Origin: Pseudomonadota bacterium
GTDB taxonomy: Bacteria; Pseudomonadota; Gammaproteobacteria; QQUJ01
Reading direction: 5' to 3'
NCBI GenBank assembly: GCA_008501635.1
Contig: QQUJ01000017.1
Span: 62,001-126,000 of the forward strand
Length of the DNA stretch: 64,000 nt
Of this stretch, positions 2-62,357 are shown piece by piece. The position numbers were made by a program, and so were the translations under genes. The notes beneath the pieces are model-generated. The model did no database searches. It saw only the letters and a list, made by a program, of their open reading frames with translations, and was not told the origin of the DNA. Numbering within the stretch: position 1 is the first letter of the stretch; every line of letters starts with the position of its first letter.

Positions 2-448
2 GATGACTTCGATTACATCATCATCGACTGCCCGCCGTCGCTCAATATGCTCACCGTCAACGCGCTGGTCGCGGCGCAGGGGGTGCTGATCCCCATGCAG
101 TGCGAATACTACGCGCTCGAGGGTCTGACCGCGTTGCTGCAGACTGTCGAAAAGATCCGCGCCGCAGCCAATCCCGGGCTGAAGATAGAGGGACTGCTGC
201 GCACCATGTACGATCCGCGCAACAACCTTTCCACTGACGTCGCCGCGCAGCTCGAAGAGCACTTCGGCGACAAGGTTTACCGCACCATCGTGCCGCGCAA
301 TGTGCGCCTGGCCGAGGCACCGAGTCACGGTGTTCCCGTGCTTCTCTATGACAAAACCTCACGCGGGGCCCTGGCCTATCTTTCCCTGGCCCGGGAGCTG
401 CTGCAACGCAATGGTGAGTTGCCACCCGTCGCCGAAGCCAGCGCGTGA
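2..448 (+). CDS. parA: ParA/Soj chromosome-partitioning ATPase, C-terminal part
   Basis: The frame is open from the first bases of the window and ends at a TGA, so only the C-terminal 148 residues are present. The first residues read DDFDYIIIDCPPSLNML, the switch II (deviant Walker A) signature of ParA/Soj/MinD ATPases. Later the conserved segment RNVRLAEAPSHGVPVLLYD appears, typical of chromosomal Soj. ParA binds DNA nonspecifically as an ATP dimer and moves ParB-parS complexes to segregate origins. parB follows after 46 bases, as in most chromosomal par operons. An internal ATG at 47 also gives an open frame, but conserved family residues lie upstream of it. The family assignment is secure; the start lies outside the window. 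Confidence 0.95.
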   Translation, partial: DDFDYIIIDCPPSLNMLTVNALVAAQGVLIPMQCEYYALEGLTALLQTVEKIRAAANPGLKIEGLLRTMYDPRNNLSTDVAAQLEEHFGDKVYRTIVPRNVRLAEAPSHGVPVLLYDKTSRGALAYLSLARELLQRNGELPPVAEASA

Positions 449-494
449 CACACTCCGGTTCCTCCACCCAACGAGCTTTGATGCAGGGTTCAAC

Positions 495-1373
495 ATGACA
501 ACGAAGAAACGTCGCCTGGGGCGCGGACTCGATGCCTTACTGGCCGGTGTCAGCCCGCCAGCCCAAGGATCGGGCAGTGAGGGTGCGTCTGTCGATGGCG
601 AGCTGCGCAACCTGTCGGTGGACCTCCTGCAGCGCGGCAAATACCAGCCGCGCCATAACATGCACAAAGAGAGCCTTGAGGACCTGGCCAGCTCGATAAA
701 GGCCCAGGGCGTGGTGCAGCCGATCGTGGTACGGCCCATCGAGGGGAGTCGCTTCGAGATCATCGCGGGTGAGCGTCGCTGGCGGGCGGCCCAACTGGCG
801 GGGTTGCAGGAAGTGCCGGTCGTGGTGCGTCACGTGCCCGATCAGGCAGCGATCGCCATGTCGCTGATCGAGAACATCCAGCGTGAGAATCTCAACCCAC
901 TGGAGGAGGCTCAGGCACTGGATCGTCTCATCGATGAGTTCGGCCTGACCCACCAGGAGGCGGCCGATGCGGTGGGCCGTTCCCGCGCCGCGGTCTCCAA
1001 TCTACTGCGCTTGCTGGATCTCAATGAAGACGTGAAGCGCTTGGTCGAGGCCGGAGAGCTGGAAATGGGCCATGCCCGGGCGCTGTTGGGTCTGAACGGG
1101 CGCCAGCAGAGCGAAGTCGCGCGCAAGGTGGCAGCACGCGGCTCGTCGGTGCGTGAAACCGAACAGCTGGTGCGCAAGCTGCAGAGAGAGGCCGAACAAC
1201 CGGCCAGGCAGCCGGCGCGGGTCGATCCCGACATCCTGCGGCTGCAGGATGATCTGGCCGAACGGCTGGGTGCCAAGGTCAATATCCAGCATGCGGCCAG
1301 CGGCCGGGGGAAGCTGGTGATCCAGTACAACAGCGTGGATGAACTGGACGGGATTCTGAATCATCTCAAGTAG
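495..1373 (+). CDS. parB: ParB/Spo0J chromosome-partitioning protein
   Basis: This is a 292-residue protein starting MTTKKRRLGRGLDALL, the N-terminal box that contacts and stimulates ParA. Next come the ParB/sulfiredoxin-type nuclease fold with the CTP-binding motif GERRWRA (about residues 92-98), the ENIQRENLNPLEEA segment, and a helix-turn-helix (GLTHQEAADAVGRSRAAVSNLL) that reads parS. The C-terminal dimerisation region ends in LVIQYNSVDELDGILNHLK. An in-frame upstream ATG at 300 would add 65 residues that match nothing in the family and overlap parA, so the start at 495 is preferred. It forms the par operon with the upstream ATPase. Family length is normal. Confidence 0.96.
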   Translation: MTTKKRRLGRGLDALLAGVSPPAQGSGSEGASVDGELRNLSVDLLQRGKYQPRHNMHKESLEDLASSIKAQGVVQPIVVRPIEGSRFEIIAGERRWRAAQLAGLQEVPVVVRHVPDQAAIAMSLIENIQRENLNPLEEAQALDRLIDEFGLTHQEAADAVGRSRAAVSNLLRLLDLNEDVKRLVEAGELEMGHARALLGLNGRQQSEVARKVAARGSSVRETEQLVRKLQREAEQPARQPARVDPDILRLQDDLAERLGAKVNIQHAASGRGKLVIQYNSVDELDGILNHLK

Positions 1374-1499
1374 AACTGCTGCACCTCACCATCGTACCGC
1401 CGAGCGGCGTAGTGTTCGAAAAACGGTCATTTTGTGCCCCGTTTGCCCCACGATGAGCGCCATCTGGGGCAATTATGAAGGGTTTTTATACCCTCATTA

Positions 1500-1528
1500 T
1501 TGACCTCATGTTGCAGTGCACTTATACT
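1500..1528 (+). promoter_or_regulatory. Predicted sigma-70 promoter of the atp operon
   Basis: TTGACC (1500-1505) and TATACT (1523-1528) are separated by exactly 17 bases, close to the sigma-70 consensus. The site lies about 85 bases upstream of atpI and downstream of parB, where the ATP synthase operon promoter is expected. A small inverted repeat, AGGGT-N6-ACCCT, lies just upstream near 1479-1494. No experimental start site is known. Confidence 0.6.
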
Positions 1529-1611
1529 TCGCGCGCCGGAAACGTGGTCCATTTCGACCTCGCTTTTCAAATGAAATCTTGTCGTTGCCCCGCGCTCCAG
1601 GACTTGCGCAG

Positions 1612-1995
1612 ATGACTATCGAGGCGCACGCCCTGCAAAGCCGTTTGCGCCGCCTGTTGTTGACTCAGTTGGTCCTGCTGGGTGTGGTGGCAACGATCTA
1701 TTTTGCCCTGAAAGGGGTGGCGGAAGCGGCTGCTGCGGCCTATGGCGGCGGTATCGCATGCGCCAACTCCGGTCTGCTGGCGTGGCGCGCGACGCAGACC
1801 GCGAAGGGCAAGGTACTGAACGCGCATCAAAGTATGCGGGTTCTGATCCGTACGGTTATCGAGCGCTACCTGCTGGTCGGGATGCTGTTTGCGCTGGGTA
1901 TGGGGGTGCTGAAGTTGATGCCTCTGCCGCTGATGGTTGGTTTCGCGGTAGGGCTGATGGCACTGTTTGGGCTAGGCAAATCGACGCACGGTTGA
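1612..1995 (+). CDS. atpI: ATP synthase subunit I
   Basis: A 127-residue membrane protein, MTIEAHALQSRLRRLL..., with about four hydrophobic segments. It is the first gene of the atp operon, the usual place of atpI. AtpI (UncI) assists assembly of the c-ring and is not part of the finished enzyme. An in-frame start at 1516 would overlap the predicted promoter's transcribed leader and adds an arginine-rich stretch of no known meaning, so the ATG at 1612 is chosen. The subunit I family is poorly conserved in sequence. The call rests on topology, length, the GKSTHG-type C-terminus and, above all, the 8-base spacing to atpB. Confidence 0.85.
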   Translation: MTIEAHALQSRLRRLLLTQLVLLGVVATIYFALKGVAEAAAAAYGGGIACANSGLLAWRATQTAKGKVLNAHQSMRVLIRTVIERYLLVGMLFALGMGVLKLMPLPLMVGFAVGLMALFGLGKSTHG

Positions 1996-2000
1996 ACTGA

Positions 2001-2876
<876 letters not shown>

Positions 2877-2883
2877 TTACTGA

Positions 2884-3159
<276 letters not shown>

Positions 3160-3204
3160 CGAATCGCTCCGATATCCCTCGGGCAATGATTACGAGGTTA
3201 GCGC

Positions 3205-3675
3205 ATGAATATTAATCTGACGCTTTTTGGCCAGACGATCGCGTTCATCGTCTTCGTCTGGTTCTGTATGAAGTTTGTCTGGCCGCCGGTCGTCAATGCG
3301 CTCGAGGAGCGCAAGAAGCGCATCGCCGATGGCCTGGCTGCCGCCGAGCGCGGACAGCACGAGCAGAAGCTGGCCGAGCAACGCGTGGCAGAAAAGTTGC
3401 GCGAGGCCAAAGAGAAGGCGCAGGAGATCATTGCGCAGGCTGAACGCCGTGCGTCTGAAGTCGTGGAAGAGTCAAAGGGTCAGGCGCGTGCCGAAGGCGC
3501 GCGGCTGCTGGAGGCCGCCAAAGCCGAGATCGAGCAGGAGTACAACCGGGCCCGCGAAACGCTGCGCGCTCAGGTGGTGACCCTGGCGGTGGCCGGCGCC
3601 GGCAAGGTCCTGGCACGGGAGATCGATCCCAAGGCGCACGACGATCTGCTCAATGAACTCGCCGGGAATCTCTAG
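3205..3675 (+). CDS. atpF: ATP synthase Fo subunit b
   Basis: A 156-residue peripheral stalk subunit. One N-terminal membrane helix (about residues 3-26, ending [11 protein letters not shown]) is followed by a long, charged, alanine-rich coiled coil, as in E. coli b (156 residues). The FVWPP motif after the helix is diagnostic. As a homodimer it links subunit a to F1 through delta. It starts 45 bases after atpE and ends 22 bases before atpH. Confidence 0.97.
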
Positions 3676-3697
3676 TCAACCCAAGGGCTGAACGCAA

Positions 3698-4234
3698 ATG
3701 GCAGAACAAGTTACCGTAGCCCGTCCTTACGCCCAGGCCGTTTTCGAGATGGCCGGGGCCGGCAAGGATCTGCAGGGTTGGTCCGGGATGCTCGGCCTGC
3801 TGGTCGAAATCGTCTCGGTCAACGAGGTCTGGGAGGTCATCAACAGTCCGCGTCTGACTCGCGCCGCCATTGCTGATCTGTTGAACGAGATCGGCGGTAA
3901 GCGGTTCAACAAGGAGTTCAGGAACTTCGTACGGGTTTTGGCCGAGAACCGCCGTCTGGTGGTGGTCCCTGAGATCGCTGCGCTCTACGAGCAGCTGCGT
4001 GCCGATGCCGAAAGCCGGATTTCGGCCGAGGTGATTTCGGCACAGACACTTAGTGATGAGCAGAAGGTGAAGATTGCCGATTCACTGCGTAAGCGATTGG
4101 GTCGGGAAGTGGAATTATCCTGTTCGGTTGACGCATCCCTGCTGGGGGGTGCGGTCATACGGGCCGGTGACTTGGTCATCGATGGTTCGGCGCGCGGCAA
4201 GCTCGAGAAGCTGGCCGCACAGCTGGGCGGCTAA
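3698..4234 (+). CDS. atpH: ATP synthase F1 subunit delta
   Basis: A 178-residue OSCP/delta-family protein that joins the b dimer to the top of the alpha-beta hexamer. The N-terminal six-helix domain begins [13 protein letters not shown]. The C-terminal conserved patch [25 protein letters not shown] is characteristic of delta. Length matches E. coli (177). It sits between atpF and atpA, with 14 bases to atpA. Confidence 0.97.
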
Positions 4235-4248
4235 TAAAGAGAGAAATC

Positions 4249-5796
4249 ATGGCGACGCAACTCAATCCCTCCGAGATCAGCGATCTCATCAAAGAGCGTA
4301 TCAAGAACTTCGAGGCCGTCACCGAGGCGCGCAGCGAAGGTACCGTGGTGAGTCTCACCGACGGTATCGTGCGTGTTCACGGTCTGGCTGATGCCATGTC
4401 CTACGAGATGCTGGAGTTCCCCGGCAATACGTATGGGCTGGCGTTGAACCTGGAGCGTGATTCGGTCGGTGCGGTGGTACTCGGCGAGTACAAGCATCTT
4501 TCCGAAGGCGACAGCGTCAAATGCACCGGCCGCGTGCTTGAGGTGCCGGTAGGCCCCGAACTGCTCGGGCGCGTGGTGAATTCGCTGGGCGAGCCGATCG
4601 ACGGCAAAGGTCCGATCAATGCCAAGTTGAGCGACCCCATCGAGAAGGTGGCCCCGGGCGTTATCTCGCGTAAATCGGTCGATCAGCCGATGCAGACCGG
4701 CTACAAGGCGCTCGACGCCATGGTGCCCGTCGGCCGCGGTCAGCGCGAGCTGATCATCGGTGACCGCCAGACCGGTAAGTCGGCGATCGCCATCGACACC
4801 ATCATCAACCAGAAGGGCACCGGCGTTAAGTGTATCTACGTCGCCGTCGGCCAGAAGAACTCCTCCATCGCGCAGGTGGTGCGCAAGCTCGAAGAGCATG
4901 GCGCCATGGAGCACACCATCGTGGTGGCCGCCGCCGCCGCCGAATCGGCCGCGCTGCAGTTCATCGCGCCCTATGCCGGTGCGACCATGGGCGAGTACTT
5001 CCGCGATCGTGGCGAAGACGCGCTGATCATCTACGACGATCTGACCAAGCAGGCGTGGGCCTACCGTCAGGTGTCGTTGCTGCTGCGCCGTCCGCCGGGC
5101 CGCGAAGCATACCCCGGTGACGTCTTCTATCTGCACTCGCGTCTGCTCGAGCGCGCCGCGCGCGTCAACGCCGACTACGTGGAGAAATTCACCAACGGCG
5201 AAGTGAAGGGCAAGACCGGTTCGCTCACCGCGCTGCCGATCATCGAGACCCAGGCGGGTGACGTGTCGGCCTTTGTGCCCACCAATGTCATCTCGATCAC
5301 CGACGGTCAGATCTTCCTCGAGTCCGACCTCTTCAACTCCGGTATCCGCCCGGCCATCAACGCCGGTCTGTCGGTCTCCCGTGTCGGTGGTGCCGCACAG
5401 ACCCCGATCATCAAGAAACTCGGTGGCGGTGTGCGTCTGGCGCTGGCCCAGTACCGCGAGCTGGCGGCCTTCGCGCAGTTCGCCTCCGATCTCGACGAGA
5501 CCACCCGCAAGCAGCTCGAACGCGGTCAGCGCGTCACCGAGATGATGAAGCAAGCGCAGTACGCGCCCATGTCGGTGGCCGAGCAGGCGGTGGTGCTGTA
5601 TGCCGCGAGCCAGGGCTACGTCGACGATGTGCCGCTGAAGAAGGTGGTGGATTTCGAGCGCGCCCTGATCAGTTACGCCCGTTCGGAAAAGAGCGAGCTG
5701 CTGGCCAAGATCAACGCCGATCCGGCTTACAATGACGACGTGCAGGCTACGCTGAAGGATCTGCTCGAGTCCTTCAAGTCCAACCACGCCTACTAA
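4249..5796 (+). CDS. atpA: ATP synthase F1 subunit alpha
   Basis: A 515-residue nucleotide-binding subunit. The Walker A motif GDRQTGKS is at about residues 171-178, and [16 protein letters not shown] follows (Walker B region). The arginine finger region [10 protein letters not shown] is present. The N-terminal [18 protein letters not shown] aligns with the E. coli alpha start, offset by two residues. Alpha carries the non-catalytic sites and supplies the arginine finger to beta. Codon use is strongly biased, as in highly expressed genes. Confidence 0.98.
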
Positions 5797-6713: not shown

Positions 6714-8105
<1,392 letters not shown>

Positions 8106-19765: not shown

Positions 19766-19925
19766 GGAACCCCTGATTAAGTCTGGTTAGGCGAGAGTGT
19801 TGTTCAGAAGGCTCGAGTTCAAGGCGGAAGGCGCAGGTAATAGCGGGCTATTGCCAAGTTGTCCAACACCGAAATCGCACCTTCCGGGCAACAGAATCAC
19901 TGAGCAGGACTTGATCAGGGGTTCC
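19766..19925. mobile_element. MITE family A, copy 1 (160 bp) upstream of soxY
   Basis: Terminal inverted repeats GGAACCCCTGATTAAGTC (19766-19783) and GACTTGATCAGGGGTTCC (19908-19925) match with one mismatch over 18 bases. A second copy of the same 160-base length lies at 58022-58181 and a fragment at 40692-40726. Flanks are CTAA on the left and CCAA on the right, which fits a decayed 4-base YTAR target duplication. The centre carries a small hairpin AATAGC-GG-GCTATT. It has no coding capacity and would need a transposase in trans. It fills most of the space between the response regulator gene and soxY. Confidence 0.85.
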
Positions 19926-19994
19926 CCAAATACAGTCAGTAATCGATTGGCGGGAATACCGTTAATTTTCATGTCGCAGATCCGGGAGGAGAGT

Positions 19995-20465
19995 ATGGAC
20001 AAGTCACGCAGAGACGCACTAAAGGCCGGCGGCAGCATCGGCCTGCTTTCGGTGCTGGTAGGTTTAGGGTTGGTGAATCCGGGCGTTGCCCTGGGATCAG
20101 AGTGGCGCAAGGGTGTCTTCGGTACCAAGAACATCGCCGATGCGCTCAAGGAGCTGGGTGTGGCGCAGCCGGAGATGAGTGACGCGATCGTGATCACCGC
20201 GCCCGATATCGCCGAGAACGGTGCCATGGTGCCGATCGAGGCGGTCTCCAACATACCCAATACGCAGACCATCGCTTATCTCGTCGAGAACAATCCCACG
20301 ACGGTCGCGGCGGTGTTCGACATTCTCCCCGGCACCATGCCGGAGGTGCGTACACGCGTCAAAATGGCCAAGACCTCGAACGTCATGATTCTGGTCAAGG
20401 CGGATGGCAAGGTCTACGCCAACCAGAAGGAAGTCAAGGTGACGCGTGGCGGTTGCGGTGGTTGA
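19995..20465 (+). CDS. soxY: SoxY sulfur carrier protein
   Basis: A 156-residue protein with a Tat-type leader, MDKSRRDALKAGGSIGLLSV. The C-terminus is TRGGCGG, the swinging arm whose cysteine (Cys154) carries the sulfur substrate as a thioether or persulfide chain. SoxYZ is moved between SoxXA and SoxB in the periplasm. A strong ribosome site, GGGAGGAG, is 3-10 bases before the ATG at 19995. An upstream in-frame start at 19797 lies inside the MITE and is rejected. soxZ follows after 52 bases. Confidence 0.97.
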   Translation: MDKSRRDALKAGGSIGLLSVLVGLGLVNPGVALGSEWRKGVFGTKNIADALKELGVAQPEMSDAIVITAPDIAENGAMVPIEAVSNIPNTQTIAYLVENNPTTVAAVFDILPGTMPEVRTRVKMAKTSNVMILVKADGKVYANQKEVKVTRGGCGG

Positions 20466-20517
20466 CACACGCAATTGATTGCAACTTGAACTCAAGACAT
20501 CGCGAGAAGAGGCAGCT

Positions 20518-20829
20518 ATGGCAAATCCAATGAAAATCCGTGCAGCAGTGCAAGGCGACGTGACCGACGTCCGCGTGCTGATGGCACACGATATGGAAAC
20601 AGGTCTTCGTAAGGACTCCTCCGGTAGCCCCATCCCGGCTCACTTCATCCAGCTGGTCACTGTCAAGCACAACGGGAAAGATGTTTTCTCTGCCCAATGG
20701 GGTACGGCAATTGCCAAGAATCCCTTTGTCGCTTTCAAATTCAAGGGTGGCAAGGCGGGCGACAAGATTCAGGTGAACTGGGTGGACAATACGGGCGATA
20801 CGCGCACCGATGAAACGACCATCCGCTAA
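20518..20829 (+). CDS. soxZ: SoxZ, partner of SoxY
   Basis: A 103-residue immunoglobulin-like protein starting MANPMKIRAAVQGDVTDVRV and containing HFIQLVTVKHNGKDVFSAQW and NPFVAFKFKGGKAGDKI, diagnostic of SoxZ. It has no signal peptide because it is exported with SoxY through Tat. GAAGAGGCAG precedes the start. It belongs to the sox operon between soxY and soxA. Confidence 0.97.
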   Translation: MANPMKIRAAVQGDVTDVRVLMAHDMETGLRKDSSGSPIPAHFIQLVTVKHNGKDVFSAQWGTAIAKNPFVAFKFKGGKAGDKIQVNWVDNTGDTRTDETTIR

Positions 20830-20880
20830 CCGTTATCGCTGGGGTGTATTTCTACGTCTAAACAGATCTGGAGAGGCAGC

Positions 20881-21684
20881 ATGAAAACACTAAAAGCTTT
20901 AGTCGCCATGTGCGGCTTGCTGATAGCCGCCAATGCCAGCGCGCAGAGCGCGGTATCAGAGGAGTTTCAGAAGTTTCGCAGCATAATGGAAGAGGACAAC
21001 CCGGCCGAGTTGTTTGAAGCCATCGGCGAGGAGTACTGGTATACCAAGGCTGGACCCAGGAACGCATCGCTGGAGGCCTGCGATCTCGGTCTCGGCCCTG
21101 GCGTTATCAAAGGCGCCTACGCGCAAATGCCGCGCTATTTTGCCGATGTCGATCAGATCATGGATGCCGAGACCCGCATCGTTCACTGCATGGAGACCCT
21201 GCAGGGCTTCAGCCATGAAGAGGTCACCAAGCAGCCGTTCAGCAACGACAAAGGCACGCCCAACCATGTCTCGGTGCTCACCTATGTCGCCTCGCAGTCG
21301 AAAGGGATGCCGATCGCCCTTCCACAATCGCATCCCAAAGAGCGCGAGGCCTACGCGGTGGGCAAGGAGATGTTCAACTATCGTGCCGGCCCCTACGATT
21401 TCTCCTGCGCCACGTGCCACGGTACCGAAGGCAAGCGCATCCGTATGCAGGACCTGCCCAATCTCACCACCAGGGATGGCGCAGCCAAATCGGTCCTCGG
21501 CTGGCCGGGTTACCGCATCACCGGTGGGCGCATGCTGACTCTGCAGTGGCGCATGAATGACTGCTTCCGTCAGCAGCGTTTCCCGCAGCCGAAGTACGTT
21601 TCCGAAGCGGTTTCCGTCCTGTTGACCTACATGGGTGTAACCGCTAACGGCACGATGTATACCGGTCCCGGTATCAAGCGTTGA
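20881..21684 (+). CDS. soxA: SoxA, c-type cytochrome of the thiosulfate-binding SoxXA complex
   Basis: A 267-residue periplasmic cytochrome with a Sec signal (MKTLKALVAMCGLLIAANASA). It has one haem site, CATCH (residues 176-180), and the active-site cysteine is Cys228 in MNDCFRQQRFP. Two further cysteines (EACDLG and VHCMET) mark the remnant N-terminal domain that has lost its haem, so this is the monohaem type of SoxA. SoxXA couples thiosulfate oxidatively to SoxY. soxX starts 11 bases downstream. Confidence 0.96.
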   Translation: MKTLKALVAMCGLLIAANASAQSAVSEEFQKFRSIMEEDNPAELFEAIGEEYWYTKAGPRNASLEACDLGLGPGVIKGAYAQMPRYFADVDQIMDAETRIVHCMETLQGFSHEEVTKQPFSNDKGTPNHVSVLTYVASQSKGMPIALPQSHPKEREAYAVGKEMFNYRAGPYDFSCATCHGTEGKRIRMQDLPNLTTRDGAAKSVLGWPGYRITGGRMLTLQWRMNDCFRQQRFPQPKYVSEAVSVLLTYMGVTANGTMYTGPGIKR

Positions 21685-21695
21685 GGGTGGAGATC

Positions 21696-22328
21696 ATGAA
21701 AACATATAAGACACTGACCACAATTGCCTTAGCCGGTATCGTCGTTGTACTCGGTGCCTGCGCCAGCAATGGCGGGCAGAGCGACAAAGTAAGCCGCGAC
21801 AAGGCGATTGCTCTGATGAAGCGTGATTTCAAAGCCACGGGTATCGCTGGTCTGGAACGGCTCGACGAAGACCAGGTGCAGGCGACCTGTAATCACTCGG
21901 GAAACAATCCGCCCAGCGATGAACTGATACGGTTGCAGCAGGAGCAGCTGGCGACCATCAAACTCCCCGCTGACGGAAATCTGATGGGCGACTGGAAGAA
22001 CGGGGAAAAGATCGCTCAGAATGGCCGCGGGTTTACCTGGCGCGACAAGCCGGGCAACGCCCCGGGTGGCGGCTGCTATAACTGCCATCAGATCGGTCCG
22101 AATGAGGCATCGTTCGGCTCCATCGGCACGAGTCTCTACCAGTTTGGCAAGATCCGTGGTTACACGGCGGAGATGCAGAAATACGTCTACAGCAAGATCT
22201 ACAATGCCAAGGCGTTCAACCTCTGTTCCGAGATGCCGCGTTTCGGCTATGTCGGTGCATTGAGCGAAGCGCAGATCAAGGATCTTGTCGCGTTGCTGAT
22301 GGACCCCGAATCCGAGGTCAACAAATAG
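21696..22328 (+). CDS. soxX: SoxX, c-type cytochrome, predicted lipoprotein
   Basis: A 210-residue cytochrome with one haem site, GCYNCH (Cys127-His131), in a C-terminal cytochrome c domain. The distal region holds GSIGTSLYQFGKIRG and FNLCSEMPRFGYVGALSEAQI. The N-terminus has a lipobox VVLGAC with Cys22, so the protein is probably lipid-anchored. The ATG at 21696 follows a good Shine-Dalgarno sequence (GGGTGGAG); an in-frame TTG at 21681 overlaps soxA and is less likely. It is longer than classical SoxX, with an extra N-terminal domain; no separate soxK is seen. Confidence 0.94.
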   Translation: MKTYKTLTTIALAGIVVVLGACASNGGQSDKVSRDKAIALMKRDFKATGIAGLERLDEDQVQATCNHSGNNPPSDELIRLQQEQLATIKLPADGNLMGDWKNGEKIAQNGRGFTWRDKPGNAPGGGCYNCHQIGPNEASFGSIGTSLYQFGKIRGYTAEMQKYVYSKIYNAKAFNLCSEMPRFGYVGALSEAQIKDLVALLMDPESEVNK

Positions 22329-22500
22329 CTCCGGGGAAAGCGTCCGGGCAGGGTTGCGCCTGTCCGGACGTTTCTCTTCCCAGGCAGCGTAGGCGTACCC
22401 AATCGGGTTGGCGTTACGGGTTGCTGCACCACGCGCTGAGCGCCGATACCGGTATGTTGACCACGCGGCGATTGTCCGATCTGTAGAGGAGTTCTCGTAA

Positions 22501-24183
22501 ATGTTGACCCGTCGCGATTTTCTTCAGGTTGCCGCAGCAACTGCAGGCATGGGTTTGCTTAAAGGTGCCTGGGCGAGCACGAGCAACCGCCTGCGCTTTG
22601 AAGACCTCACCGCATTCGAACCGGTGGGTCAGGTCACGCTCCTCAATTTTACCGATATCCACGCGCAGTTGATGCCGCTCTATTATCGAGAGCCATCCAG
22701 CAACCTCGGTGTGGGCCACCTGCACGGTCTGCCGCCGCATATCACCGGCAAGGAATTGCTGCGGTACTTTGGTTTGAAGTCCGGAACCGCGGAGGCGTAT
22801 GCATTTACGCATGACGATTTCGAGCGCCTGGCGCGTGCTTACGGCCGCGTCGGAGGTGTTGCCCATCTGGCAACGCTGATCAAGGCGATACGGGCTGAAC
22901 GCACCGGCCGGACTCTGTTGGTTGATTGTGGAGACACGTGGCAGGGATCCTACACCGCGTTGAAGACCAGCGGGATGGACATGGTCGAAGTCATGAATGC
23001 CATGGGCGTCGAGCTGATGACGGCACACTGGGAATTCACTTATGGCGAAGCGCGGGTCAAAGAGCTTATCGCGGCGCTCAAGTTTCCTTTTCTCGCCGGC
23101 AACGTCGTCGATGTCGACTGGGAGGAGGACGTCTTCGCGCACACCGCGTTTTTCGAACGTGGGGGCGTCAAGATCGCCGTGATCGGCCAGGCGTTCCCTT
23201 ACACTCCGGTGGCCAATCCGCGCTACATGATGCCCAAATGGTCGTTCGGTATCCGCGAGGAAAAGGTGCAGCAGCGCGTTGACCAGGCCCGCGAAGCGGG
23301 CGCCGAGCTGGTGGTCCTTGCCAGTCACAACGGTTTCGAGGTCGATCGCAAACTGGCCGCCCGGGTCAACGGCATAGACGTCATTCTTACGGGTCACACG
23401 CACGATGCGATACCGGCGCTGATACCGGTAGGTGACACATTGCTGGTGGCGGCCGGGTCGCATGGGAAATTCCTCGCACGCCTCGATCTCGAGGTGAAGC
23501 ACAAACGCATCGTGCGTTACGGTTTTCGTCTGATTCCCGTTTTCTCCGATGCGATACCGGCGGATCAGGAGATCGCTGCGCTGGTCAACAAGATTAGAGA
23601 ACCCTACGCCAAAGCTCTCAACGAAGAGCTGGCAACCACCGATTCCCTGCTCTACCGTCGGGGTCATTTCAACGGCACGTTCGACGACCTGATCTGTAAC
23701 GCGATTTTGCAGGAACGTGATTGCGAAATCGCACTTTCGCCGGGATTCCGTTGGGGTTCGGCGCTGCTGTCCGGTGATTCCGTACGACTCGAAGATGTCT
23801 ACAGCCATACCGCGATCACTTATCCCAACTGCTATCGGCAGGCGATGAGCGGCGGGCGCATCAAAGAGATTCTTGAGGATGTGGCAGACAATCTGTTTAA
23901 TCCCGATCCCTATTATCAGCAGGGTGGTGATATGGTGCGTGTCGGCGGACTTGGTTACACTATCGACATCCGCAAGCCAATGGGCGATCGCATCAGCAAT
24001 ATGATTCATCTGACATCAGGTACAGCCATCGATCCACAACGCGACTATATGGTCGGGGGTTGGGCGTCGGTAAATCCCGATACCGCGGGTCCCCCCATCT
24101 ACGACCTGGTGGCAGACTATCTGCGTCGCGAAAAGCGCGTCAATCTGCAGGGGTACGAACACGTCAAGGTGCTCGGTGCGTAG
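22501..24183 (+). CDS. soxB: SoxB, di-manganese thiosulfohydrolase
   Basis: A 560-residue protein with a Tat signal, MLTRRDFLQVAAATAGMGLL. It has the metallophosphatase/5'-nucleotidase fold, with metal ligands in TDIHAQLMP, CGDTWQGS, the SoxB-specific AHWEFTYG, ASHNGFE and GHTHDAIP. It releases sulfate from the SoxY-bound sulfone. The C-terminal nucleotidase domain is complete (GGDMVRVGGLGYTIDI). It starts 172 bases after soxX. soxCD does not follow; ccdA and a thioredoxin gene do. Confidence 0.97.
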   Translation: MLTRRDFLQVAAATAGMGLLKGAWASTSNRLRFEDLTAFEPVGQVTLLNFTDIHAQLMPLYYREPSSNLGVGHLHGLPPHITGKELLRYFGLKSGTAEAYAFTHDDFERLARAYGRVGGVAHLATLIKAIRAERTGRTLLVDCGDTWQGSYTALKTSGMDMVEVMNAMGVELMTAHWEFTYGEARVKELIAALKFPFLAGNVVDVDWEEDVFAHTAFFERGGVKIAVIGQAFPYTPVANPRYMMPKWSFGIREEKVQQRVDQAREAGAELVVLASHNGFEVDRKLAARVNGIDVILTGHTHDAIPALIPVGDTLLVAAGSHGKFLARLDLEVKHKRIVRYGFRLIPVFSDAIPADQEIAALVNKIREPYAKALNEELATTDSLLYRRGHFNGTFDDLICNAILQERDCEIALSPGFRWGSALLSGDSVRLEDVYSHTAITYPNCYRQAMSGGRIKEILEDVADNLFNPDPYYQQGGDMVRVGGLGYTIDIRKPMGDRISNMIHLTSGTAIDPQRDYMVGGWASVNPDTAGPPIYDLVADYLRREKRVNLQGYEHVKVLGA

Positions 24184-25593: not shown

Positions 25594-25657
25594 AGTCACT
25601 GAATACGAGCTTTTTCCGGGGGAAAGGGGATCACACAACTGAGCAGAGGTGAGATCT

Positions 25658-25951
25658 ATGGCACTACCAGAGAGAGACGGTGACGGTTACCTGCAAGACC
25701 GCGACGAATGGACCCCCGAGATTGCGCGCGCTATGGCTGAGGTCGACGAAGTTGAGCTCGACGAGGAAAAATGGAGCCATATCGTCGGCGCTCGCAAATA
25801 CTACGAAGAGCATGCCGTTGTTCCGCCGATACGCAAATTTGCCAAATACCTCGGTGTGGACCAGAAGGGCATGTTCAATAAATGGATGTGTGGACCCATG
25901 AAGCCCATAACCAAATATGGCGGACTGCCAAAGCCGACAGGGTGCGTTTAG
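25658..25951 (+). CDS. DsrC/TusE-family sulfur-relay protein lacking the second cysteine
   Basis: A 97-residue protein ending YGGLPKPTGCV, the DsrC/TusE tail with the invariant penultimate Cys96. True DsrC has a second cysteine 11 residues before this; here that position is Thr85. Another cysteine, Cys78, is at a non-standard spacing. It therefore belongs with TusE-like or RspA-like members that can carry a persulfide but cannot form the DsrC trisulfide loop. WSHIVGARKYYEEHAVVPPI is the family core. It closes the sox gene run and is followed by a strong terminator. Likely roles are cytoplasmic sulfur relay or sulfur-linked regulation. Confidence 0.85.
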   Translation: MALPERDGDGYLQDRDEWTPEIARAMAEVDEVELDEEKWSHIVGARKYYEEHAVVPPIRKFAKYLGVDQKGMFNKWMCGPMKPITKYGGLPKPTGCV

Positions 25952-28834: not shown

Positions 28835-29104
28835 CTAGAACCTATCTCAAAATCCCGCGCGTGCTGTGTTGAGCCCCAGAGGTGCGCTGGGTAGGCCCGA
28901 AGGCGCAGCCAATAGCAGCGCTATTGGCAAGTCGAGAACACCGCCAGCGCACCTCTGGGGCCAACCCGAAGGGCCGGCCGCTCGCGGCTCCAGCGCGGTG
29001 TTGCGGCTCACTCATTGGGAGTGACCCAACCACCATCGCCGCGCCTTGCGCTGAAACCACGAGCGACCGGCACAGCTCGCGGGGGATTTTGAGATAGGTT
29101 CTAG
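28835..29104. mobile_element. MITE family B, full copy (270 bp with CTAG ends)
   Basis: The ends are perfect inverted repeats starting CTAGAACCTATCTCAAAATC (28835-28854) and ending with its complement (29085-29104). CTAG at both ends probably is a 4-base target duplication of the IS5-type YTAR kind. The centre has CAATAGC and GCTATTG as a hairpin, with larger arms CCCCAGAGGTGCGCTGG and CCAGCGCACCTCTGGGG flanking it. There is no open frame of note. A truncated copy is at 48131-48207. The right-hand CTAG supplies the stop codon of the octahaem cytochrome gene. Confidence 0.85.
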
Positions 29105-29895
29105 TCATCGTCGCGCTCTCGATGTTTGTCTTTCTCTGACCCACGTCGGAAATCACGCAGCTTAAAGTCACCCGATTTAGACTGCTTTGATCGCCACAGA
29201 TGCTTGGCTTCATCCTCGTCACCGCTGCGGTGACACTCCACGCAGTTCTCGTAGTTGAAGATACCCTCTTCGACATGCTCTTCGCGAATCTTGGAGCGGG
29301 AGTGCTCATGGCAGCCGTAACAGGTGTAGCTGCTGTAGTCATCGTTCACATGACAGGTGGCACACTCGGTGGTGTGATCCCGATCGAAGCGGAAGTACTG
29401 CTCGTGATCGAATGTCGCCGGTGTCCAGGCCTCCTGGGAATGGCACTCTCCGCAGTTGCCCTTGATCTTCTGGTGCAGGGCATCGCCGGGATTGCCATGG
29501 CAACTGTCGCACTGTTTCTGGAGCTGCGCCTCAAGCAGCAGGTGCGAGAACATATTGATGGGACGAAAGGCCTTCACTCCGCGGTGGTCGCTGTGACAGG
29601 AGACGCAGTCGTCCTCGATCAGCTGTTGGTGGAAGGCGACGTTTTTCGTCTCCTCGGCGATGGAACGCCCCTGAGTGGTCTTCAGTCCGATCTCCTCGAC
29701 CTTGTGGCATGCAATGCAATTGTCGGGCGTGCTGCCGATGAACGGAGTGTGACAGGCGAAACAGTCGTTGTTTAAATCCGCGTGGGCGTCGATGAGTTTG
29801 CCGGGCATGATCATCGGTTGCGGCATAAAGATCACCAGCAAAACCAGTACGGCCAGATTGGCCGCGACGACGAGCATGACGGTACGGTTCTTCAT
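29101..29895 (-). CDS. Membrane-anchored octahaem c-type cytochrome
   Basis: A 264-residue protein with an N-terminal anchor (MLVVAANLAVLVLLVIFMP) and eight CxxCH haem sites in order: CFACH, CIACH, CVSCH, CDSCH, CGECH, CATCH, CYGCH, CVECH. Many further histidines could be distal ligands, as in class III/NapC-NrfB-like multihaem wires. The charged tail (DFRRGSEKDKHRERDDD) ends at a TAG inside the MITE. The start at 29895 overlaps the cytochrome b gene by 4 bases, so the two are co-translated. It probably carries electrons in the periplasm; the terminal acceptor is unknown. Confidence 0.88.
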   Translation of the reverse strand: MKNRTVMLVVAANLAVLVLLVIFMPQPMIMPGKLIDAHADLNNDCFACHTPFIGSTPDNCIACHKVEEIGLKTTQGRSIAEETKNVAFHQQLIEDDCVSCHSDHRGVKAFRPINMFSHLLLEAQLQKQCDSCHGNPGDALHQKIKGNCGECHSQEAWTPATFDHEQYFRFDRDHTTECATCHVNDDYSSYTCYGCHEHSRSKIREEHVEEGIFNYENCVECHRSGDEDEAKHLWRSKQSKSGDFKLRDFRRGSEKDKHRERDDD

Positions 29896-30467
29896 TGCCA
29901 CTGCCAGAACAGGAAGATGCTGAAGATATGGGTGAGCGCGAGCACGCCGAAAGCCAGTGTGATGGGAAAGTGCACGGCACGCCACTTCTTCATCGCGTCC
30001 ACCGTGACCGAATCCCAGAACAGTTCCCGCTCCAGCGCTTCCCCGGAAAGCGCTTGTTCATACATCGTTTTCTTTTCGGCGAGGTGGCGCCGTGAACGAT
30101 CCAGAAGGTACTTGCCGGTCATGCCGCTCCCCACGTTGACCAGCATGGCCAGCAGCGCCAGCCAGGGCAGGATGGCGTAGACATGGATCCCGGCGTGAAC
30201 CATGACCATCAGCGCTCCCAACCAGGTCAGCGCCTCGTGCAGCGTCAGCAGGGTCTTGGGTCGACCGAACCTGATCAGCTTGCGTTTGCGCATGGAGTAA
30301 AAGAATGACAGCAGGATCAGGATCGTGCCGGGGATGCCCAGATAGCGGCCGATCCAGACCAGGTCGAAGAGGTGCAGCAGCGCATCGGCAATGATGGTGG
30401 CGGCGATCAGGCTGCCGAACATCACCAGGAAGGGCAGGACCTCTTTGCGTAGGATGGATCGGTGCAT
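29892..30467 (-). CDS. Small cytochrome b-like membrane protein
   Basis: A 191-residue protein with about five hydrophobic segments. Candidate b-haem histidines sit in paired helices: LLTLHEALTWLGALMVMVHA and IHVYAI in the middle, and WRAVHFPITLAFGVLALTHI near the C-terminus. This resembles cytochrome b561/ferric reductase-like helical bundles. It lies between a NAD(P)H-type reductase gene (2 bases upstream) and the octahaem cytochrome gene (4-base overlap), so it likely moves electrons across the membrane. The haem assignment is inferred from histidine placement. Confidence 0.75.
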   Translation of the reverse strand: MHRSILRKEVLPFLVMFGSLIAATIIADALLHLFDLVWIGRYLGIPGTILILLSFFYSMRKRKLIRFGRPKTLLTLHEALTWLGALMVMVHAGIHVYAILPWLALLAMLVNVGSGMTGKYLLDRSRRHLAEKKTMYEQALSGEALERELFWDSVTVDAMKKWRAVHFPITLAFGVLALTHIFSIFLFWQWQ

Positions 30468-30469
30468 GT

Positions 30470-31738
30470 CTATGCCGCCAGGGTGATGTCGCCGTCGGGT
30501 TTGGAAATACACAGCAGGCAATGGCCAGCCGCGATGTCCGCGTCGGGCTGCTGATTGTATATCACATCACCGGTTTCCAGTTCGGTCTGACAGCAGCCGC
30601 AGCTGCCGGCGCGGCAACCGGATTCCACCGCGATGCCGTTGCTCTCGGCAAACTCCAAGAGAGAGTCGGCATGCGCGTCCCAGTTCAAGGTCTTTCCGGT
30701 CCTGCGAAAAGTCACGGCGACGGCACGGCCAGCCTGTACTTGCGCCGTTAAATCCGGTTTTGCAGGTCTGACAAGCGTCGCGGGGCCGAAGGATTCGTAG
30801 TGGATGTCCCCGGTATCCACGCCCCACTCCTCGAGGGCCGGTACCAGGCTCTCCATCATCGGCTTGGGTCCGCAGACGTAGAATTGGTAGCGCGCCAGTT
30901 TGAGCGTCGCACGCAGTAACGCCACGTTGATGAATCCGGCGTGCTGATAGTCCATACCCGCCTCTTCCTCCCCTTGTGGGTTGCTGTAACAGAGGTGGAG
31001 GTGAAAATTCGGGTGCGCCGCAGCCAGTGCCCGAAGATGATCTGTCATCACCGGTTCGGTGCCGTCGCGTACGCCGTAGAAGAGCCATACCTCACGCGGG
31101 TCGCGTTGCTCAAACAGTGTGTTGACGATGCTCAGCATCGGAGTGATGCCAATCCCCCCGCCGATCAGGACGATGGGTAAAGGCGAATCCGTGAGATAGA
31201 AATGACCGGCAGGCGCTCTGATCTGCAGACGGCTGCCCTCCCGTACGTGGTCGTGAAAGTAGTTGGAGGATAGACCGGGAGGGGCGGTGGGTTGATCGGC
31301 CGGCGCCGGAATCCGTTTGATGGAGACTCGGTAATAGTCTGGACGCGGGCGATCCGACAGCGAGTAACAGCGCACCACGGTTTTGATTTCACCGGACTCC
31401 GGATCGGGAACAGGTAGTTTGAATGTCAGGTATTGGCCGGGTCGATAGGCCGGGAGCGGTTGTGAATCACTGGGTACCAAATAGAACGAACAGATCGATT
31501 GGGCGCCATCCTCGATGACCCGGCGCTGAACCACGAATTCCCGGTACCCCTCCCAACCAAGACCCTTGGGCGCGGGTGTCGTATCAACCTCCGCGCCGCC
31601 CGCCCTCGAATCAGCCCGGGGTGGCTGGAGTGGTGCGACGGCATCACGCCGAGCCCGATAGAGTATCCGCACGACCACCACAGCAACTTGTGCCAGGATG
31701 GCCGCCAAGATGATGAGTGCAAGGGTGGTGGTGGACAT
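30470..31738 (-). CDS. Membrane-anchored ferredoxin-NAD(P)H reductase with C-terminal 2Fe-2S domain
   Basis: A 422-residue flavoprotein. One N-terminal membrane helix (residues 3-25) precedes an FAD-binding barrel (YLTFKLPVPD; RCYSLSDRPRPDYYRVSIKR), a NAD(P)H domain (PIVLIGGGIGITPMLSIVNT), and a plant-type 2Fe-2S ferredoxin domain with GCRAGSCGCCQ and HCLLC as cluster ligands. This is the NqrF/oxygenase-reductase layout with a membrane anchor. It starts the operon leading to cytochrome b and the octahaem cytochrome. The ATG at 31738 is chosen because the helix begins there; upstream in-frame codons add no family sequence. Confidence 0.87.
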   Translation of the reverse strand: MSTTTLALIILAAILAQVAVVVVRILYRARRDAVAPLQPPRADSRAGGAEVDTTPAPKGLGWEGYREFVVQRRVIEDGAQSICSFYLVPSDSQPLPAYRPGQYLTFKLPVPDPESGEIKTVVRCYSLSDRPRPDYYRVSIKRIPAPADQPTAPPGLSSNYFHDHVREGSRLQIRAPAGHFYLTDSPLPIVLIGGGIGITPMLSIVNTLFEQRDPREVWLFYGVRDGTEPVMTDHLRALAAAHPNFHLHLCYSNPQGEEEAGMDYQHAGFINVALLRATLKLARYQFYVCGPKPMMESLVPALEEWGVDTGDIHYESFGPATLVRPAKPDLTAQVQAGRAVAVTFRRTGKTLNWDAHADSLLEFAESNGIAVESGCRAGSCGCCQTELETGDVIYNQQPDADIAAGHCLLCISKPDGDITLAA

Positions 31739-60275: not shown

Positions 60276-62357
60276 TCACTTTGAGATTGGAAACGAAACG
60301 AGAAACTCGACCCCTGGAGCCTGAGGCAGGTTCTTCGCCGTCACGGTCGCGTGATGACGTTCGGCGATGAGCCTTACGATGTACAGTCCCAAGCCCAGAT
60401 GGGGCGCATCGTAGCGTTTTTCGCGGACGGTCACCATGGGGTCGAAGAGGCGGTTGCGCAGGGACGCAGGAAGTAAAGGGCCGTAGTTGATTATGCTTAA
60501 CAACACGCGATCCGATTCTTGATTGAGTCTGATCTGAATAGGCTGATCAGCGGGCGAAAAGCTCACCGCATTGTCGATGAGTTTGTCCAGCAACTGCGCG
60601 AGTAGATCGGGTTGTCCATTGATACGCAAATCCGTATCGATGCCGTTCAGTAGCAATTCGAATCGGCTTTCAGGGTAAGCGGTGCGATAACCGGCTACGC
60701 AACTCGCGAGCAATGCGCCGAGATCGACCGGCTCATCTTCTTCGTTATGTACTGCCTGCTCGACATTACCGGCTTCGCTCATAGCGGAAAGCAGACGACC
60801 GAGGCGTTCGGTTCCGTCGCGTGCGCGTTCGAGATAGGCGCCGGCCGTTTCGCCTTCGCGCAGTTGCTGGAGGTTTTCCAAAGAAGATTTGACCACGGCG
60901 AGCGGCGTGCGCAGTTCGTGGGAAAGAATCGAAGCGAGACGTCGCAGATAACCGGTGTAGTCACGCAATTCATCCAATAGATCGGCATAGCTGCGCGACA
61001 GGTCGCCCAACTCGTCGCGGCTGCGAGACCGCGGAAAATCATCGCGTATGGTGCCGTCTGCAGCCACAGCGTTTTCCGCGGCATCGCGCAAGCGTCGCAC
61101 CCGCCACGACAGCACCGAGGCGAAACCGAGCAGACCGACCACTACGATAAAGAGCACCAGCAGTGTGAGATAGAAAAGCCGGGTGAAGGCGAGCTCGGTG
61201 AGCGCCGCGACGAGATCGCTGGCCTGTTCGACAACGACCGTTCCGGCGATGCGGGTGCCGAGTTGAATGGGCGCTACAGCGACAATGACAGGCGTGTCGG
61301 TCCGGCGCTGACGAAACCAATCGCTTTCGCTGTTGCCGCCGAGCGCGGTATTCAACAGGCCGCCGCTCAACTGCCCGCTGCGATCGCGCAGAGGTGACGG
61401 CCGTGCCTCCTGTCCCAGACTCCAGCGCACCAACTGAATCAGTGCCGCATCCCACAGACCGCGCTGTTGGCTCTGTTCGCTCGCCGTGGCTTCACCGCGC
61501 CGATCCTGTTCGGCCAGCAGCCATCCCTGATTGTCGGTAACGCGTAATCGCAGCCCGCTCGGGGTGAAGGGTTTGAGCGCTTCGCCCAGTTCGCGCGAGG
61601 GATGTATGAGCGGAGTGGGTTTGGTCGAGGTACGCCAGTCCGCGGTACCCTGCCAACGGAATGTATCGCGGCTATGGCTGTCGACATCGATGAAAAAGAA
61701 ATCCAGGCCCCGTTCTGCGATGTCGAGTGGTAGCGCGATCTCCATGCGGTATCCCTCGCTGCGCTCCAGCCAATACCCTTGTATGCGGTAGTTGGGTTCG
61801 CCTATCTGATCCAGGCGGCGCCCGCCAAGACGTTGTGCGTTGAAATTTCCCGTGGCACTGCTGGCGATCAGGTAGTAGTCAAATGCGCTATCCGGCGCAA
61901 GCAACCGCAACACGACGCGATCCCCATTGGCTTGGGATTCCACGGGCCGGTAGTAGACTTTATCGCTGTCTTCGATCTCCAGAAGCAGGTACAGCCGCTC
62001 CTGGCGAATACCGATGCGGTAACTCAGTGTGGTGCTGCCGTCGACACCGCTGCCGAATTCGACGCTTTGGTAATCATGGGCATAGTTGGCCCAGTCGTCG
62101 GCGTAACCGTCGAGATTGATCGGATGCGGCAGCAACCCCGCGTAGAGCGGTGAGACCACCTCTGTGGTTGGTTCTGTTTGCGTGTCGAAGGCAGCTTGAC
62201 CGGCAAGCGCCTGGGCGACGGCCCTGCCGGTGGCGAGCAGCGCCTGTTGTTGCCCCTGGCGCAGCGCACCCTCCATCTCCTGCACATAGCGGTGGGCTGC
62301 CCACGGCAGCACCAGCACGAGCAGACTCACCAGCAGAAGTTGCAGCCGCAGCGGCAC
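60276..62357 (-). CDS. Sortase-system-type sensor histidine kinase (PdsS-like)
   Basis: A 693-residue kinase. The first helix (LLLVSLLVLVLPWAAHRYV) is followed by a large periplasmic region with a carbohydrate-binding-like domain (LPHPINLDGYADDWANYAHD; LYLLLEIEDSDKVYYRP), a second helix (about 391-415), a HAMP-like linker, HisKA with His480 in ILSHELRTPLAVVKSSLENL, and HATPase (KLIDNAVSFSPADQP; LGLGLYIVRLIAERHH). This architecture is that of the kinase of the proteobacterial dedicated sortase system (TIGR03785). No sortase gene is in the window. Confidence 0.8.
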   Translation of the reverse strand: MPLRLQLLLVSLLVLVLPWAAHRYVQEMEGALRQGQQQALLATGRAVAQALAGQAAFDTQTEPTTEVVSPLYAGLLPHPINLDGYADDWANYAHDYQSVEFGSGVDGSTTLSYRIGIRQERLYLLLEIEDSDKVYYRPVESQANGDRVVLRLLAPDSAFDYYLIASSATGNFNAQRLGGRRLDQIGEPNYRIQGYWLERSEGYRMEIALPLDIAERGLDFFFIDVDSHSRDTFRWQGTADWRTSTKPTPLIHPSRELGEALKPFTPSGLRLRVTDNQGWLLAEQDRRGEATASEQSQQRGLWDAALIQLVRWSLGQEARPSPLRDRSGQLSGGLLNTALGGNSESDWFRQRRTDTPVIVAVAPIQLGTRIAGTVVVEQASDLVAALTELAFTRLFYLTLLVLFIVVVGLLGFASVLSWRVRRLRDAAENAVAADGTIRDDFPRSRSRDELGDLSRSYADLLDELRDYTGYLRRLASILSHELRTPLAVVKSSLENLQQLREGETAGAYLERARDGTERLGRLLSAMSEAGNVEQAVHNEEDEPVDLGALLASCVAGYRTAYPESRFELLLNGIDTDLRINGQPDLLAQLLDKLIDNAVSFSPADQPIQIRLNQESDRVLLSIINYGPLLPASLRNRLFDPMVTVREKRYDAPHLGLGLYIVRLIAERHHATVTAKNLPQAPGVEFLVSFPISK

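Follow-up and report, generated by a model that had tools for sequence, protein, structure and literature searches.

One of the questions raised by contig QQUJ01000017.1 of the gammaproteobacterial lineage QQUJ01 regards three tightly packed genes, which encode a flavoprotein reductase, a small membrane protein and an octahaem cytochrome c: do these proteins form one electron path, and in which direction would it run? We studied the three genes (the trio) within a stretch of 64,000 nucleotides, positions 62,001 to 126,000 of the contig, which is called the window here. A mechanism that fits our data, and to which we give a probability of about 55%, is that the trio is a transmembrane NAD(P)H:multihaem-cytochrome-c oxidoreductase that exports electrons, a split NOX-like conduit. 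A first-pass annotation of the window, made from the letters alone, had proposed electron transfer from NAD(P)H to the periplasm, and the conserved unit, the domains, the anchoring and the likely b haems described below are consistent with this. Direct reading of the minus strand gives the order reductase, b protein, octahaem c, with a gap of 2 bases (AC) between the first two genes and an overlap of 4 bases (ATGA) between the last two; the coordinates, gap and overlap of the annotation were exact (Table 1).

The reductase was described in that annotation as a membrane-anchored NAD(P)H-type flavoprotein with a 2Fe-2S domain, which is borne out by its Pfam domains and by its one hydrophobic segment, found at the N-terminal by hydropathy. 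It matches NAD_binding_1 (9e-21), Fer2 (5e-11) and FAD_binding_6 (2e-4) in Pfam, and flavohaemoglobin (4e-50) and NqrF (5e-23) among the PDB sequences, while NCBIfam gave only matches below cut-off. The motifs RCYSLS and GGGIGITP are present, and the four cysteines of the [2Fe-2S] domain are invariant across 41 aligned reductases. All the parts of an FNR-like 2Fe-2S reductase (FAD, NAD(P) and 2Fe-2S domains with four Cys) were found, in the same order as in PaaE, Hcr (PRK10684) and the glycine betaine monooxygenase reductase. Unlike these, the trio reductase has an N-terminal membrane anchor, and its genomic partners are haem proteins and not oxygenases. The soluble part of the reductase is predicted to be cytoplasmic, based on the positive-inside rule applied to the RILYRARR sequence after the anchor.

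The b protein gave no Pfam or NCBIfam family at E<=0.1, and its earlier description as cytochrome b-like holds for the histidine pairs but finds no family match behind it. Across 52 aligned b proteins, His32, 77, 91, 95, 166 and 180, S114, G115, G118 and W162 are invariant. When the single b sequence was shuffled at constant composition, 1901 of 100000 shuffles gave two disjoint HX13H pairs, so that the pattern by itself is only mildly unlikely; it is the invariance of the histidines over the 52 sequences that argues for a b-type cytochrome, which likely binds two b haems. The loop of residues 57-72 contains seven Lys or Arg and no Asp or Glu, and the loop of residues 95-101 contains none of them. 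Based on these charges, the amino ends of helices 3 and 5, with His77 and His166, would lie on the cytoplasmic side, and in this orientation each helix may supply one ligand to the haem near the cytoplasm and another to the haem near the periplasm. The AlphaFold2 model of the protein is helical, of moderate confidence (mean predicted local distance difference test score, pLDDT, 78.5), and the deeper 52-row alignment gave no higher confidence (76.5).

The third protein was annotated as an eight-CxxCH membrane-anchored cytochrome, in agreement with its motifs, its Pfam matches (Cytochrom_c3_2, Cytochrom_CIII and Cytochrome_C7) and a single N-terminal hydrophobic segment at residues 6-24 (hydropathy). 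All Cys and His of the eight CxxCH motifs are conserved at 0.98-1.00 among 55 aligned cytochromes, and so are nine extra His (38, 89, 104, 118, 141, 164, 174, 198 and 207) within or just before the haem region; CxxCH motifs with sufficient distal His are what is seen in class III/c7 cytochromes. Because nine spare His suffice for eight bis-His haems and leave no open site, the protein should be an electron wire or store rather than an enzyme. Most of the 55 proteins share the acidic C-terminal tail, and some relatives carry 10 or 12 CxxCH motifs.

How far does this arrangement recur? A scan of named genomes with the b protein resulted in 35 loci (L013-L047), found in purple sulfur bacteria (Allochromatium, Thiocapsa, Lamprocystis, Thiodictyon), Sedimenticola, Magnetococcales, Herbaspirillum, Bacteroidota, Vicinamibacteria and others. 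A reductase gene, whole or remnant, lies upstream of the b gene on the same strand in 27 of the 35 (L013-L038 and L047), and the trio arrangement is therefore not chance; this count and those below ignore kinship, several loci being close relatives and some sharing one genome region (e.g. L056/L091, L057/L089 and L059/L090). These upstream reductases are mostly 46-64% identical, and in L030 the reductase and b genes are 275 bases apart. Among the 27, two are cut by the contig end, L033 is split in two frames and L032 consists of the anchor and the 2Fe-2S domain. At all loci checked with tblastn but one, the c gene comes directly after b; the exception is L034, whose stretch ends 175 bases past the b match. 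In Gammaproteobacteria, 29 of 369 genomes have a b protein match at E<=1e-10, seven of them close (host included) and 22 longer and distant, and the reductase adjoins the b-c pair in six of the seven. In Pseudomonadota, where the b protein is found in 24 of 398 genomes (E<=1e-20), the reductase adjoins the b gene in 12 (host included) and lies only elsewhere in the genome in five (G392, G398, G411, G436 and G465).

The remnant in L032, from a metagenome-assembled genome of Thiodictyon, is an in-frame protein of 168 codons (7476-7982) upstream of the b and c genes; its FAD and NAD domains are gone, yet the four Cys are kept and Fer2 is matched at 8e-8. Since only the anchor and the 2Fe-2S domain remain, this protein points to the 2Fe-2S domain as the probable partner of the b protein, although the deletion, like those of L110 and L113 discussed below, rests on single contigs of draft genomes, in which assembly errors are possible.

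In the proposed mechanism, the anchored flavoprotein would take a hydride from NAD(P)H onto FAD, and the FAD would pass single electrons to the reductase's own [2Fe-2S] domain. This domain would reduce the cytoplasmic-side b haem (His77/His166), from which electrons may hop to the periplasmic-side b haem (His91/His180) and further to the membrane-anchored octahaem c. Periplasmic dihaem c or DUF1924 proteins, peroxide and metal oxides are candidate final acceptors. The expected flow is outward, since NAD(P)H donates at low potential and export is aided by a membrane potential that is negative inside. A similar electron source, an FAD/NAD(P)H dehydrogenase, serves NOX and the MsrQ-Fre system. 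In NOX, the ferric reductases and MsrQ (PF01794), too, a stack of two b haems is predicted to be held by two HX13H pairs located on two helices, and two such pairs on two helices are found in the b protein (H77/H91 and H166/H180). The trio differs in that the dehydrogenase is a separate anchored chain with an extra 2Fe-2S domain and that the acceptor is a multihaem c. Electrons are also led from NADH to an extracytoplasmic acceptor by Rnf with a multihaem cytochrome and by Ndh-type extracellular electron export. The trio would share this route but, unlike them, shows no ion pump or quinone step, and the proteins differ.

HX13H proteins beside multihaem cytochromes have been in print since 2017. 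The PCC3 and PCC4 clusters were described with an inner-membrane protein that has five helices, an SGXXG motif and two WX3HX13H motifs; it was likened to the ferric reductase domain, and quinone exchange was proposed (He et al., 2017, PMC5566968). The same paper mentions shorter five-helix proteins with HX13H, left unnamed, next to multihaem cytochromes; most have no porin with them, many have 'another redox protein', and they were said to lack significant homology to PCC3; the available text does not name a reductase as their redox partner. The first-pass statement that no named complex has this composition was therefore nearly right, with these unnamed pairs as the reservation. Like PCC3, PCC4 and the unnamed pairs, the trio has five helices, SGxxG on helix 4, HX13H on helices 3 and 5 and a multihaem c neighbour. 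Unlike in PCC3, where a periplasmic cytochrome of about 21 haems and a larger extracellular cytochrome occur with a porin, only one cytochrome of 8 haems is found, and no porin or extracellular cytochrome was found adjoining the trio. There is no further multi-CxxCH frame among the gene calls of the window, and no porin among the trio neighbours put through Pfam (EamA, DUF6639, HNH and others), the more distant genes being only partly covered. The b protein has 191 amino acids against about 300 in PCC3-type proteins, an FNR-type reductase stands upstream, unlike in the PCC3/PCC4 description, and of the Trp residues that precede both HX13H motifs of PCC3 by four residues only W162 (before H166) is present, residue 73 before H77 being Leu.

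Contrary to the published statement, our profile comparison indicates that the short b protein family is homologous to the PCC3-type inner-membrane proteins (hhalign, 98.6%, E=4.8e-16, 86 columns, helices 2-4). For this comparison 21 proteins were called PCC3-type by their length and motifs, plus neighbouring frames with 15-69 CxxCH in six regions, and the porin was no part of the assignment. One such PCC3-type cluster (L049) contains an open frame of 1704 amino acids with 69 CxxCH motifs at 157-5271.

Flavoproteins recur with these putative conduits. Separate copies of the trio-type reductase (L134, L135 and L136, in G392, G398 and G420, the last of which also has an adjoining copy) lie within a second multihaem cluster with the order small multihaem cytochrome genes, reductase, cNMP-binding/4Fe-4S protein and HX13H-SGxxG-HX13H membrane protein, and in L135 and L136 a 10-11-haem frame comes next. 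The L135 reductase has the FAD, NAD and Fer2 domains. The membrane protein of these clusters contains both WX3HX13H motifs and SGxxG and matches the PCC3 profile (96%, E=4.7e-9); its direct match to the short b family is weak (5%, E=0.007), so that the link between the two runs through PCC3. Another separate copy (L137) has a cNMP/4Fe-4S protein and a 4-haem frame nearby; the copies in L132, L133 and L138, for which no such neighbours were seen, count against this association. The PCC3-type genomes have a flavoprotein of a different kind, which is unrelated to the trio reductase and goes unmentioned in the available text of PMC5566968; it starts with a hydrophobic stretch and combines two 4Fe-4S motifs with a Pyr_redox domain. 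At E<1e-100 it is found in 27 of 27 genomes with a long b protein (the 22 from the Gammaproteobacteria scan and five more) and in one of 26 genomes without a b match; three more of these 26 match only weakly, at about 1e-31 to 1e-34, in each case within a larger frame. Its distance from the b gene is at most about 2 kb in 21 genomes and at most about 12 kb in three, and in the remaining three it is on another contig. The reductase linkage, the L134-L136 copies and this flavoprotein together suggest that the b-c conduit is partnered with pyridine nucleotides.

Other results weigh against an NAD(P)H-driven, NOX-like unit. In eight of the 35 named loci (L039-L046) the b-c pair has no adjoining reductase, and their genomes contain only distant FNR paralogues (26-30% identity) or none at E<=1e-15. 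The seventh gammaproteobacterial genome with a close b protein (G217) has a b-c pair without the reductase, with a kinase-like gene and one resembling PepSY proteins in the vicinity. The reductase was not found at E<=1e-12 in seven of the 24 Pseudomonadota genomes (G386, G440, G448, G458, G468, G495 and G534), of which G495 is 78% and G534 65% complete. In the Bacteroidota phylum, that of G370, 58 of 296 genomes have the b protein; in ten regions a c-type match stands beside the b gene in all ten, with 10 to 18 motifs in the seven that have a gene-call count, and the reductase in none. In L110 and L113 the reductase is reduced to decayed pieces, which indicates that it can be lost. From these b-c pairs it follows that the reductase is not an obligatory partner. 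The first-pass annotation had tied its coupled unit to the genes staying together in relatives; this holds for b and c, while the reductase separates in part, being away from the b-c pair in 8/35, 1/7 and 12/24, with five of those 12 carrying it elsewhere. Two of the seven short-type genomes (G239 and G263) contain both the trio and the PCC3-type flavoprotein. Finally, the b protein shows no sequence similarity to PF01794, and membership in that family was rejected, with hhalign values of 0.4% to six MsrQ-like and 0.2% to three FRD-FNR proteins and no Pfam match at E<=0.1. Foldseek with the b protein model gave no match at E<=0.001. In the VIA structure comparison csNOX5 (5o0t, Z 6.8, root-mean-square deviation 4.2, 119 aligned) and STEAP1 (Z 7.2, deviation 3.8, 124 aligned) stand among unrelated helical bundles at Z 6-8, and over the fold searches with two b protein models b6f, b561, superoxide oxidase, STEAP1 and NOX5 all scored Z 6-9, none clear of helical-bundle noise. 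The host genome has its own PF01794 proteins away from the trio (L095 and L101).

The pairs without any reductase nearby would fit a conduit in which the b protein exchanges with the quinone pool, as drawn in the published PCC3/PCC4 model (PMC5566968), and the reductase is an optional feeder. We consider this unlikely, since two unrelated kinds of dedicated NAD(P)H-type flavoproteins accompany the b proteins, and no quinone site was identified in the b protein, although no search was aimed at one. The first-pass annotation had also suggested a reverse run that makes NADH in a sulfur oxidiser; electrons of sulfur oxidation would then enter via the octahaem c and make NAD(P)H. The soxY, soxZ, soxA, soxX and soxB genes (named by NCBIfam models) are close to the trio at 19797-24183, the relatives include purple sulfur bacteria and Sedimenticola, and the larger multihaem cytochromes of A. 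vinosum, among them two with 8 haems of which one may correspond to our octahaem c, reportedly go up on pyrite (PMC11267869). Yet general bioenergetics makes NADH synthesis by the trio unlikely, because inward electron movement through the haem wire works against the membrane potential, so that the proton motive force would hinder it, and because the trio lacks a proton-coupled unit; the donor in the periplasm would have to lie well below the NAD couple. The window sox genes were matched near the trio in just one other locus (L013) of the 35, and sox linkage was rejected as the key to function. This suggestion of the annotation is thus not supported, and we leave very little room for it. For the PCC3 clusters, reports on expression pull in different directions, as far as their available text goes: in Sideroxydans ES-1 both PCC3 clusters are less expressed on Fe(II) than on thiosulfate (PMC8788666), and strain CL21 shows higher expression of the inner-membrane gene of one PCC3 copy when its cells can oxidise iron (PMC12442390).

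A third possibility keeps the electron path of the export mechanism and defines its acceptor: under metal or peroxide stress, the trio would reduce peroxide or Fe(III) in the periplasm at the expense of NAD(P)H, and its expression would be coupled to metal transporters. Cation-efflux (CDF) genes stand in the flank of L014, L015, L026, L033, L037 and L047 (6/35), L090, and L149 and L151 (2/10), the assignment being Pfam-tested in L047, L090, L149 and L151; these loci belong to lineages far apart from each other. VIT1 iron/manganese transporter genes adjoin the module in L129 (8270-9046) and L043 (9683-10780), and catalase-peroxidase genes are near it in L040, L129 and L152. This recurrence hints at a metal or peroxide role, but such genes are absent from the window and from most loci, and the counts come without a background rate of random genes; we regard the specific acceptor as rather improbable. 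In Thiocapsa (L014, L015 and L026) the trio stands with cytochrome b561, dihaem c (DHC), a DUF1924 protein, PepSY, two-component genes, an EB_dh protein and a cation-efflux gene, of which L021, L023 and L024 share the b561-DHC-DUF1924 part; these families were tested on one representative each. A. vinosum Alvin_0018-0025, listed under names similar to those neighbours, rise on pyrite in the available part of PMC11267869. Gene calls of the loci were made by a home-made codon score, so the gene lists are approximate and firm names are given only to proteins tested with Pfam or NCBIfam.

A wider reading, which we hold only tentatively and think somewhat doubtful, is that the trio, PCC3 and the PCC4-like L134-L136 clusters are one conduit superfamily wired to pyridine nucleotides and not (only) to quinones, in which at least two unrelated flavoprotein/FeS dehydrogenases sit on the same b-haem core. 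If so, clusters that are usually read as uptake paths for iron oxidation would be NAD(P)H-powered electron exporters. If the export mechanism of the trio is right, a three-protein valve that sends NAD(P)H electrons to the periplasm, bypassing quinones and lowering the membrane potential, would exist in sulfur bacteria and many other lineages. For PCC3-type extracellular electron clusters this would suggest a donor that can be tested and a probable direction of flow, and a Pfam-orphan b-cytochrome family would have its partner and haem ligands predicted. The NAD(P)H module, the homology of the short b protein to PCC3 and the flavoprotein in 27 of 27 genomes are apparently new in the open-access literature.

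Table 1. Positions of the trio genes and their features in the window.
Feature	Position	Strand	Basis
Membrane-anchored NAD(P)H-type flavoprotein reductase, 422 aa (anchor, FAD, NAD(P), C-terminal [2Fe-2S]); ATG at 31738, TAG ending 30470	30470..31738	-	Pfam, NCBIfam, PDB sequence matches, motifs
Predicted reductase membrane anchor, residues 5-23, then RILYRARR	31670..31726	-	hydropathy; positive-inside rule
Reductase [2Fe-2S] domain, Cys375, 380, 383, 410	30497..30703	-	Pfam Fer2; alignment
Five-helix b-type cytochrome candidate, 191 aa; ATG at 30467, TGA ending 29892	29892..30467	-	alignment, AlphaFold2 model
HX13H pair 1, His77 and His91, helix 3	30195..30239	-	invariant in 52 sequences
SGxxG motif, residues 114-118, helix 4	30114..30128	-	S114, G115, G118 invariant in 52 sequences
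HX13H pair 2, His166 and His180, helix 5; Trp162 four residues ahead of His166	29928..29972	-	W162, H166, H180 invariant in 52 sequences
Octahaem c-type cytochrome, 264 aa, N-terminal membrane anchor, acidic C-terminal tail; ATG at 29895, TAG ending 29101	29101..29895	-	eight CxxCH; Pfam class III/c7; hydropathy
Eight-haem region, first to last CxxCH	29230..29763	-	55 aligned cytochromes

By its gene content the host is a sulfur oxidiser, as read from the sox genes and from a TusE/DsrC-family gene (NCBIfam TIGR03342) at 25649-25951, between soxB and the trio. In the relatives, a small secreted-looking protein is encoded near the module in Herbaspirillum (L047, 5957-6454), Magnetococcales (L037, 6274-6780) and G436 (L123, 6583-7071); the L047 protein has no Pfam family. 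Beside the octahaem gene lies a 270-bp element delimited by terminal inverted repeats of 34 nucleotides (94%), at 28835-28868 and 29071-29104, and CTAG stands at either end; the element runs into the TAG stop of that gene. An 18-base piece of the repeat arm has 12 copies in the genome against 0 for the reversed control, and the element looks like a non-coding mobile element.

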